A DNA stretch of 62,642 nucleotides, from positions 1 through 62,642 of the forward strand of contig MPMZ01000011.1 in assembly GCA_002238765.1 (NCBI GenBank), read 5' to 3'. The position numbers were made by a program, and so were the translations under genes. Within the stretch, counting starts at the first letter, position 1, and every line of letters starts with the position of its first letter. The notes under the pieces are model-generated. The model was not told the DNA's origin, did not search any database, and saw only the letters and a list, made by a program, of their open reading frames with translations. Below are positions 3,741-55,836 of this stretch, piece by piece. This DNA is from Nitrospira sp. bin75. Its GTDB lineage: Bacteria; Nitrospirota; Nitrospiria; Nitrospirales; UBA8639.

Positions 3741-3802
3741 TCTACCTCCCCTCGCCCCTCCTTACCCTTCGACTTCGCTCAGGGCAGGCAAAGGAGGGGA
3801 AT
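3741..3802 (-). repeat. Family A repeat split by a family D element
   Basis: Reading the + strand, CTACCTCCCCT and CCCCTCCTTAC are followed by a 24-bp family D element and then AAAGGAGGGG. Removing the 24 bp restores CCCCTCCTTAC-AAAGGAGGGG, which is exactly the intact family A core seen at 37629-37649. This is direct evidence of nesting. Confidence 0.75.
3766..3789 (+). repeat. Family D 24-bp element, copy 1
   Basis: Begins CCTTCGAC, has the core TTCGCTCAGGG and ends CAGGC. It lies inside a family A hairpin, between TTAC and AAAGG. Confidence 0.7.
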
Positions 3803-23764: not shown

Positions 23765-23787
23765 GCCTGCCCTGAACTTGTCGAAGG
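23765..23787 (-). repeat. Family D element, copy 2 (reverse)
   Basis: On the minus strand it begins CCTTCGAC, has AAGTTCAGGG and ends CAGGC (23 bp). It lies between the GT2 pseudogene and repeat F copy 2. Confidence 0.6.
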
Positions 23788-23965
23788 GTTGTGCGCGTAT
23801 TCTACGCATCGCCCCCAAACGGGTCAAACCAATGTACTCGTTCAGGACAGATGAAACAGACCCCAACCCCGCCCTCTCTTCTTCCCCGACGCTTGTCCTC
23901 GCTTTTGTTTTCAGTTGTAGGGGCCGCATCTAATGCGCCCCCCACTTTTCCTTATGCATTCGTAG

Positions 23966-25554: not shown

Positions 25555-25612
25555 TCCTGTATGTGTTCAGTCATTCCCTTCGACTGCGCTCAGGGCAGGC
25601 GTTGACAATTTT
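25555..25612 (+). repeat. Repeat X, occupied by a family D element
   Basis: Left arm TCCTGTATGTGTTCAGTCAT-TC, then a 24-bp family D element, then GTTGACAATTTT. The same two arms occur directly joined at 37727-37760 on the other strand, so this copy is the filled version of that site. Confidence 0.75.
25577..25600 (+). repeat. Family D element, copy 3
   Basis: CCTTCGACTGCGCTCAGGGC then AGGC (24 bp), lying inside repeat X. Its edges are given by comparison with the empty site at 37727-37760. Confidence 0.8.
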
Positions 25613-27280: not shown

Positions 27281-27326
27281 CGCTCTACCCCACCCGCATT
27301 CCCTCTTCGGAAATGCGCCCACTTAC

Positions 27327-27350
27327 CCTGCGACTCCGCTCAGGACAGGC
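27327..27350 (+). repeat. Family D element, copy 4
   Basis: CCTGCGACTCCGCTCAGGAC then AGGC (24 bp), preceded by CTTAC as in copy 1. The rest of the gap to 27647 shows no further repeat; a TATACT box (27573-27578) is a weak promoter candidate for the Tat genes. Confidence 0.6.
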
Positions 27351-30753: not shown

Positions 30754-30865
30754 AACAGGAACCGTGTGGCTACAAGAAATGTAGAAGAAGGCACGGTCCT
30801 TCATGAAGGAATGAATAAATGGTCACAGACATGTTATAAAGATTCGTTCCTTTTGAGGTCGAAGA

Positions 30866-31128
30866 ATGAAGGACGTGATTACCCGCCAAACAGTTGTCGA
30901 TAAGCTCGCTGCCTATTTGCACCACGAGCTTTCACTTTCGTCGCGTGGGCGGAAACCTCCCTCATGGATGTTGAATTTGACGACAACCATTTCGGAGAAA
31001 TTCGAGACGTCGTGGCTCGGGTGGGGGTCGCCGACGTATGAGCGTTCGGCCTGACCTGGGAAGACTGCGAACACCTGCTCCGGCGATTAGGCTATTCAGC
31101 CCATATCAAAATTGAAGCCACCCGGTAA
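30866..31128 (+). pseudogene. Decayed small gene, copy 1 (about 85 residues)
   Basis: The frame starts MKDVITRQTVVDKLAAYLHH, then after about residue 30 the sense moves to another frame: WAETSLMDVEFDDNHFGEIR, DVVARVGVADV, a TGA, then AFGLTWEDCEHLLRRLGYSA and HIKIEATR. So there is one frameshift and one nonsense codon. A second copy with the same frameshift lies at 33828-34111. The protein family is not recognised; context suggests a small accessory protein such as an antitoxin, but this is unproven. Confidence 0.65.
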
Positions 31129-33606: not shown

Positions 33607-33827
33607 AACGCTTTCCTCTTTGGGTACATAGACACCGCTGCCAGAAAAAAGGTGCATATTTCGTCGGCCTTCAATTAAGCGCCTGGGGGCGCTACGATGC
33701 ACGGTCGAACATGTTGATGAAGTGTACTATACCGGAAAACGTAGGTTAACGAAATGCAGTGCGGCCGGTGTTAGTGTTAAAGAAGAGGAGCCAGTTATCC
33801 CATTGATTACGGTCATCAGGTCGAAGA

Positions 33828-34111
33828 ATGAAGGACGTGATTACTCGCCAAACAGTTGTCGATAAGCTCGCTGCCTATTTGCACCACGAGCTTTCACTTT
33901 CGTCGCGTGGGCGGAAACCTCCCTCATGGATGGTGAATTTGACGACAACCATTTCAGCGTCATTCGAGACGTCGTGGCCCGAGTGGGCGTGCCGATGTGC
34001 GAGCATTCGGCCTGATCCTTCGACAAGCTCGGGACAGGCCTGGGAGACTGCGAACACCTGCTCCGGCCATTAGGCTTTCAGCCCATGTCCAGATCGCAGC
34101 CAGCCGACTGA
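33828..34111 (+). pseudogene. Decayed small gene, copy 2, with a family D insertion
   Basis: About 85% similar by eye to 30866-31128, with the same early frameshift, so the damage precedes the duplication. It then differs: after CATTCGGCCTGA a 23-bp family D element is inserted and the rest continues as CTGGGAGACTGCGAACACCT. The two copies lie in the same direction and flank the DUF2235 region as direct repeats. Confidence 0.65.
34017..34039 (+). repeat. Family D element, copy 5
   Basis: CCTTCGACAAGCTCGGGACA then GGC (23 bp). Its edges follow from comparison with the empty sister sequence at 31051-31055 (GACCTGGG). Confidence 0.75.
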
Positions 34112-37549: not shown

Positions 37550-37720
37550 TCCCTCCCCTTTGTAAGGGGAGGTCAGGTGGGGTAGAGTCCGGCCTTCGGA
37601 TGACTGCAAATGCCTCTACCTCCCCTACCCCTCCTTACAAAGGAGGGGAATAGATGCCTCTACCTCCCAACTTTTCCCTCTTCGGAAAAAGTTCCCGTCT
37701 TTACAAAGGAGGGGAAGGAA
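37550..37720. repeat. Three family A repeats in a row
   Basis: One + copy (37550-37588), one - copy (37611-37650) and one long - variant (37654-37716). The middle one, CCCCTCCTTAC-AAAGGAGGGG, is the intact form used to define the nested insertion at 3766. Confidence 0.7.
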
Positions 37721-37726
37721 AAGGCC

Positions 37727-37760
37727 AAAATTGTCAACGAATGACTGAACACATACAGGA
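37727..37760 (-). repeat. Repeat X, empty site
   Basis: On the minus strand TCCTGTATGTGTTCAGTCAT-TC is followed directly by GTTGACAATTTT. It is the unoccupied form of the sites at 25555-25612 and 46712-46755. Confidence 0.75.
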
Positions 37761-46711: not shown

Positions 46712-46818
46712 ATGTGTTCAGTCATTCCCTTCGACAGGCTCAGGACAGGCGTTGACGATCTCTGCCTTGTCATTCCCCTCCTTTGTAAGGAAGGGCGAGG
46801 GGAGGTAGGGGCATTCGG
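46712..46818 (+). repeat. Repeat X with a family D element, then a family A repeat
   Basis: ATGTGTTCAGTCATTC (46712-46727) is followed by a 23-bp family D element (46728-46750, CCTTCGACAGGCTCAGGACA then GGC) and GTTGACGAT. A family A hairpin (46774-46810) follows, just upstream of the EVE-domain gene. Confidence 0.7.
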
Positions 46819-54552: not shown

Positions 54553-55836
54553 ATGAACGTTATTTCTTCAAAAGATAAAACCTATCCCGAGGCGTTGGCC
54601 GAGGTCTGCAATCGTGCCGCCTGCCAGCACGCCAAGATCGAAGGTCGCGTGAAACGTATTCTGAAAAACGTCGAACGCAACGGCGATGCCGCGGTTTCGC
54701 GATACGTCAAAAAGTTTGACGGCCTGACCTTGTCGCCGAAAAAGTTTCGCGTGTCCTCGAAAGAAATTCAGCAGGCGTATGCCGGCGTGCAACGGGCGGA
54801 TCTGCAAGCTTTACAATTTGCCGCGAGACGCATTCGTGCGTTTCATCGCAAACAACGGGTGCCGACGTGGGTGAGTGAGGAAAAGGGTGTGAAGCTCGGG
54901 CAGTTCATCACTCCCCTGGACGTCGTGGGGTTGTACGTGCCCGGCGGGAAAGCGTTGTATCCCTCGACGGTGTTGATGAACGCCATCCCCGCCAAAGTCG
55001 CCGGGGTGCCGCGGGTCATCATGTGCAGTCCCACCACGTCCGGGTCCATCGATCCCCATTTGTTGGTCGCGGCGGATCTCGCGGGCGTCGATGAAGTGTA
55101 CCGGGTCGGAGGCGTGCAGGCGATCGGGGCGTTGGCCTACGGGACCAAGCAGATACCCCGGGCGGATAAAATCGTCGGTCCGGGCAACATGTACGTGGCC
55201 GCGGCCAAACGAGCGGTGTACGGGACCGTCGATATTGACATGATTGCCGGACCGAGCGAACTGCTGGTGATTGCGGATGAATCCGCCAACCCCGCCCATT
55301 GCGCAGCCGACCTGTTGTGTGAAGCCGAACACGATGAAGAAGCACGCGTCTATCTGGTGACGACTGCGCCGTCGTTCGCCAAGAAGGTTGCGAGGGAAAT
55401 CCGCCTTCAATTACCCAAACTGACGCGTCGACATATTGCCACGTATTCCGTCGGCCGTTATGGTAAAATTTTTGTCGTCTCGAATCTGGACGAAGCCTTT
55501 GACGTGGCCAATGCCATTGCTCCCGAACATTTGGAGGTCCTGTTGCCCAGGCCCTTCGACTACGTGAAAAAAATCAGGCATGCCGGTGCGGTGTTTATGG
55601 GGAGCTATACCCCGCCGGCCGTGGCGGATTACGTGGCCGGTCCCAATCACGTGCTGCCGACCGGGGGCTCCGCACGGTTTTTTTCGGCTTTGTCGCTCGA
55701 TGATTACGTGAAACGAACGAACGTCGTGGCGTATAACAAGGCACAACTGAAGGTCGTCACCCCCTACGTCACGCGGTTGGCCGCCATGGAGGGGTTACAA
55801 GCGCATGCCCGCTCCATAGAAAGCCGGGGGTCATGA
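54553..55836 (+). CDS. hisD: Histidinol dehydrogenase
   Basis: A 427-residue enzyme of the last two steps of histidine synthesis. [40 protein letters not shown] with [14 protein letters not shown], and [20 protein letters not shown] are its family stretches. I prefer the ATG at 54553 to the GTG three bases before. It is in the middle of the his cluster, 7 bp after hisG. Confidence 0.96.

Follow-up and report, generated by a model that had tools for sequence, protein, structure and literature searches.

Among described systems, the nearest in kind to the element reported here are the small dispersed repeats (SDRs) of Nostoc and its relatives (Elhai et al. 2008, as cited in PMC4390886, PMC3116915, PMC3733652 and PMC2884548). 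In the parts of the literature that we draw on, SDR5 is inserted precisely at a defined point in the HIP1 repeat (PMC4390886), GTAG-tagged repetitive extragenic palindromes (REPs) and REPINs (REP doublets forming hairpins) go with RAYT transposases (PMC3733652, PMC3116915), the GTAG-23 elements of T. roseum sit within small palindromes that are also found empty (PMC3733652), CGTC-tagged REPs are tagged hairpins without a dedicated transposase (PMC3733652), and insertion sequences are described that target REPs (PMC1525189). The subject of this paper is an element of 23 or 24 bp, E, found in a contig of 62,642 nucleotides (hereafter the window) from Nitrospira sp. bin75 (GenBank assembly GCA_002238765.1, contig MPMZ01000011.1). 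E is gained at exact positions immediately before a C and without any further bases, and its mobility is near certain.

Results

E has the consensus Y-CCTTCGAC-N-CTCAGG-R-CAGG and is placed just before a C. In our labelling, in which G, C and L numbers stand for genomes, contigs and loci, the window corresponds to contig C108 of genome G000, an assembly of 3.04 Mb, and one protein has 87–89% amino-acid identity to the nearest named Nitrospira sp. and Nitrospirales metagenome-assembled genomes. An earlier note on this DNA, made from its letters, had reported three copies of a repeat, X, and six copies of the element in the window, and on re-examination of the sequence all of these are where it had put them, including a third X copy that holds a 23-bp version and a pair of X repeats of which one is filled and the other, on the minus strand, is empty (Table 1). 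The genome-wide motif search that it had proposed finds 63 copies of the strict pattern CCTTCGACN2-8CTCAGGNCAGG in the G000 genome and none of the reversed control pattern, and a looser core gives 83 matches against 2 for the control; this copy number is far beyond chance. Exact copies of the X arm in the genome are without the element in 27 of 30 cases. A loose-pattern match at 55553 was rejected as an E copy.

The edges had been described as exact, with the element lying between ATTC and GTTG. They are indeed exact to the base, but the unit shifts one base to the left and reads YCCTTCGAC...CAGG between ATT and CGTTG. All 169 distinct sites begin with C (124) or T (45), and the base that follows E is C in 159 of the 169. 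For C-starting copies the edge is ambiguous by one base and both readings are equal. The tie is broken by T-starting copies, for which the occupied site GGCCTGA[TCCTTCGACAAGCTCGGGACAGG]CCTGGG can be set against the empty site GGCCTGACCTGGG; in a nested T-starting case the outer E reads CTTCGCT[TCCTTCGAC...CAGG]CAGG. We place the edge one base to the left because the empty form of the T-starting copies would otherwise need an extra mutation. The former edges (CCTTCGAC...CAGGC after a C) were dropped, since a C, and not a T, stands at the empty site that matches the T-starting copy. A one-base target duplication is an equivalent description for C-starting copies and is unsupported by the T-starting ones, 43 of 45 of which have C as the next base.

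Comparison with relatives provides further insight into whether E is gained or lost, a choice that the earlier note had left between a very short mobile unit and one that is cleanly lost. At the 25576 locus genome G010 has the same neighbours and the same X and Z repeats, with the element absent, and empty forms of this and three further window loci are listed in Table 1. The rejoined flanks of these occupied and empty pairs align without a gap at the junction and without surplus bases, as the proposal of an insertion had led one to expect, and the target duplication that had also been proposed for inspection is not seen in them at 2 bp or more. Because the empty state is the common one among relatives, we read these loci as gains, and the orthologous loci decide the question in favour of gain at most sites tested. 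Two E copies on contig C2 (L031), outside the window, are empty in G010, but G003 also holds elements there, so that the direction of change at these two loci is not settled. In G010 a decayed E lies opposite an intact copy in G008 (L232) and has left a 9-bp scar, CAGGACAGG; this one clear decay implies that clean excision is not the ordinary fate of E. Palindrome Y beside the 25576 orthologues is occupied in G001 and G013 and empty in G011, and the copy at 3765 is uninformative against G010, which lacks the Y region altogether.

A related observation concerns contigs C41 (L007/L085) and C98 (L024/L084) of the same assembly, which share exactly 127 bases up to X and then diverge, with the element on one side and another X-like unit on the other. 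This is an assembly branch, and it may reflect strain variation at the locus.

Each host repeat has a single insertion point: GTCATT^CGTTGAC in X, CCTTA^CAAAGG in Y, GGATTAG^CGTAGCGTAATCC in W, CACCCCAGCC^CTCTCC in Z, others besides, and CGCT^CAGG in E itself. When inserts were searched in retrieved sequence without any condition on their content, E accounted for 14 of 14 inserts of 24 bp in Y, 7 of 7 of 24 bp in W and 4 of 4 of 23–24 bp in X. Among the matches listed for non-empty CCTTA..CAAAGG in two genomes (27), those 24 long are E-like in 10 of 10 cases and the other lengths are scattered. The Y point carries nine E variants across eight genomes and must therefore have been struck repeatedly, and several unrelated palindromes have each taken up different E variants repeatedly at one and the same point. 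One variant dominates in each of W (mostly TACG) and Y (mostly TTCG..G), which suggests some spread of composites.

Copies of E within E (L042, L053, L054, L074, L198, L241 and others) always occupy the one point given above, and 9 of 9 inner copies are T-starting. A tandem array of at least 5 copies with a 23-bp period lies at G000:C115:48465-48578 (L078), and two-copy tandems also occur in G115, G198 and G323.

In 11 of 43 host clusters, several of the loop-positive ones being W relatives, a perfect inverted repeat with a stem of at least 6 has its loop at the junction. Among random ^C positions the share is 1.8% (p = 2.5e-10), and among neighbouring ^C positions it is 9 of 356 (p = 5e-7 against the junctions). 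An earlier version of the test gave a modest preference (p = 0.006). It is fair to say that E prefers palindrome loops as targets and does not require them, and the target preference that had been suggested for study exists, as a C immediately 3' together with palindrome loops.

The first base of E (Y) and an inner base (R) covary: the combinations T..A, C..G, C..A and T..G occur 45, 46, 78 and 0 times respectively at the 169 sites (Fisher p = 7e-8). The pattern is repeated in IMG/VR contigs, with T..G at 1 of 117 sites among the matches listed (p = 2e-5). The covariation covers this one pair, the inner stem being fixed by the search patterns. On the reverse strand the classes present are U-A, C-G and U.G and the missing class is C.A, whereas, read on the forward strand, the absent combination would be a U.G pair, which can be tolerated, and the most frequent one would be a C.A mismatch; for this reason we place the pairing on the reverse strand only. 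The absence of T..G is unlikely to be a simple mutation effect, because neutral decay of C..G would yield T..G as readily as C..A. E is a strand-specific imperfect hairpin with a 4-base 5' tag, 5'-CCTG-[Y CCT ... AGG R]-3', its reverse strand reading 5'-CCTG-Y-CCTGAG-tip-TCGAAGG-R-3'. The tip is C-GNA-G in 87 of 169 and CTTG or CCTG in 47 of 169, and these tip variants account for the variable centre that the earlier note had remarked on. GNA tips and PyGAPu tandem mismatches are stable, and C-GNA-G tips are especially stable in DNA.

A strict copy of E is carried by 57 of 296 sampled Nitrospirota genomes, with the reversed control at 0 in 296; counts per genome within the genus run from 0 to 77, and in IMG/VR contigs, which are of varied origin, a scan gave at least 120 stretches. 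None of the E core strings that were looked for is printed in any paper of the open literature searched. In draft assemblies 90–100% complete, PF01797 (Y1, RAYT/IS200) was not detected by profile or protein search in the E-rich genomes G000, G001, G003 and G004, and the reverse transcriptase PF00078 was not detected in G000, G003, G004, G008 and G010. RAYT relatives are present in G005 and G008–G013. In G009, which has one E in the genome, the RAYT lies amid its own GTAG-tagged GGCCGCAT-CTC-ATGCGGCC palindromes, a different REP. The mover of E may be an enzyme that has diverged or that was lost recently.

The RAYT-like gene at L247 (G009:C1:2633097-2633570) encodes 158 aa with a PNHLH motif and lies at the locus orthologous to 24.8-25.5 kb of the window; the GTAG-tagged palindromes around it include, beside the form just given, GGTGCCAT-CTC-ATGGCACC. 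Repeat W (GTAGGTCGGATTAGCGTAGCGTAATCCGACA) is GTAG-tagged like a REP, yet RAYT was not detected in G000.

The remaining features of the window are summarized with the E copies in Table 1. Positions 30856-31028 and 33818-33990 form a 173-nt duplication, 95% identical, with E downstream of one side only. Unrelated high-copy palindromic families coexist in the window, namely D1/D5 (Y), D6 (Z) and D2/D9, W being found at other loci. There is no Rfam family match at gathering score within the window.

Table 1. Copies of E and empty sites in the window
Feature	Position	Strand	Empty form or comparison
E, 24 bp, CCCTTCGACTGCGCTCAGGGCAGG, within repeat X	25576..25599	+	no element at the orthologous locus of G010; X there also empty in G001, G011, G013
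E, 23 bp, CCCTTCGACAGGCTCAGGACAGG, within repeat X	46727..46749	+	empty in L147, L148
E, 23 bp, TCCTTCGACAAGCTCGGGACAGG, T-starting, fixes edges	34016..34038	+	empty in G010, L147 and the window's own paralogous segment
E, 23 bp, CCCTTCGACAAGTTCAGGGCAGG, flanks without detected repeat	23766..23788	-	empty in G010, G005, G004
E, 24 bp, in loop of palindrome Y (CCCCTCCTTA^CAAAGGAGGGG)	3765..3788	+	
E, 24 bp, left flank Y-type, right flank W-type (recombinant junction)	27326..27349	+	
Repeat X without element; empty junction between 37740 and 37739	37727..37760	-	
Empty paralogous site of 34016; junction 31054/31055 (GGCCTGA^CCTGGG)	31042..31065	+	
Palindrome Y without element (empty form of 3765)	37628..37650	+	

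Discussion

The overall best explanation of these data, to which we assign a probability of about one half, is that E is a mobile 23–24 bp hairpin that moves as a single strand. In such a scheme the reverse strand of E, while single-stranded, would fold into the hairpin, and a nuclease or strand-transferase reading tag and hairpin would join E 3' of a G (on the hairpin strand) in another exposed strand, with the loop of an extruded palindrome as preferred acceptor; replication would then fix the joined hairpin as duplex. The actor would probably be an unrecognised protein acting in trans, because several E-rich genomes are without a detectable Y1 transposase and reverse transcriptase, and some of the copies in families Y and W would have arisen by spread of the composite of palindrome and E. 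A more specific proposal, that E is a multi-lineage mobile hairpin which enters single-stranded hairpin loops by a strand-transfer activity unrelated to Y1 transposases or reverse transcriptases, is tentative and falls a little short of even odds.

Several results weigh against movement as a single strand. Energy models fold E alone weakly and are ambiguous in the inner part, so that the inner stem is a reading of the tip variants, and the tolerance of wobble pairs would suit RNA as well as single-stranded DNA. The thermodynamic loop test across all host clusters was not significant. Lagging-strand single-strand transposons usually show an orientation bias, and the orientation of E has none by contig or by replication arc (p = 0.45 and 0.81, at low power).

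The scatter of E across the phylum and beyond, with several E-rich genomes lacking a detectable Y1 transposase or reverse transcriptase, and the preference for palindrome loops would also suit a process with no dedicated enzyme, in which short fragments released by general hairpin processing or by template switching during replication are captured in hairpin loops or other breaks; SbcCD, for example, cuts hairpins. Capture of this kind would not be expected to settle on a single sequence with exact ends every time, however, and the 24-bp inserts in Y and W are all E, while the covariation implies a structure that is recognised, and we regard this explanation as unlikely. A hairpin RNA might instead be reverse transcribed and the copy integrated, a route reportedly proposed by Elhai in 2008 for cyanobacterial SDRs, with which E is comparable in size and nesting; pairing with G.U wobble on one strand is consistent with it, but with PF00078 undetected in the five genomes searched and tips that are mostly of the kind especially stable in DNA it appears distinctly unlikely.

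That E might be a REP on which a RAYT (Y1/HUH transposase), either resident or recently lost, acts in trans is suggested by the layout of E as tag and imperfect hairpin and by the RAYT relatives in G005 and G008–G013. As the enzyme is undetected in four E-rich genomes, as that of G009 sits among its own GTAG-tagged palindromes in a genome with a single E, and as the tag of E is CCTG and not GTAG, we consider this very improbable. Finally, E might be immobile, its copies being spread solely by copying or conversion of the host repeats that contain it. The partial association of variants with host family and the recombinant junction at 27326 fit such spread, but the same E occurs in many unrelated hosts, and the exact gains in flanks without a detected repeat refute it as the whole story, leaving it scarcely credible.

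If E is a loop-inserting hairpin with a novel activity, no other self-standing mobile DNA unit for which exact gains are proven would be as small; E is in any case among the smallest mobile DNA units described. The ends of E are now known exactly, together with its strand, structure and target rule; relatives supply empty sites, the results for the two obvious enzymes are negative, and the question of how 20-odd base pairs can be mobile becomes testable. There is also a caution for annotation, in that E read in frame adds spurious peptide stretches such as DRLRTG or STGSGQ.

With its exact ends, E at 23/24 bp lies within the size of about 21–27 nt that Elhai is said to have given for SDRs in 2008. 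The likeness extends to a hairpin backed by compensatory changes (in E, one Y-R pair), to copies that enter another repeat precisely at one defined point and are nested in themselves and in other repeats, and to the lack of a known enzyme for either. E differs in its Nitrospirales host and in its range across Nitrospirota and IMG/VR contigs, which is not confined to cyanobacteria, in its target of a 3' C and palindrome loops and not HIP1, and in that its gain is shown by orthologous empty sites; the SDRs are compared here by description and not by sequence. With GTAG-tagged REPs it shares a short tag 5' of an imperfect hairpin and many copies, and with CGTC-tagged REPs a tagged hairpin. As its own tag is neither of these, its stem sequence is different from that of the CGTC type and RAYT went undetected in four E-rich genomes, we do not file it as a REP, and unlike a REPIN it is a single hairpin, often without a partner to form a dimer. 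Among insertion sequences, those with REPs as targets, such as IS1397, which inserts into REP loops, resemble E in entering palindromes, but these are full transposons with a gene, whereas E has no gene and makes no target duplication beyond one ambiguous base. E belongs with the known very small mobile hairpins, as a new variant.
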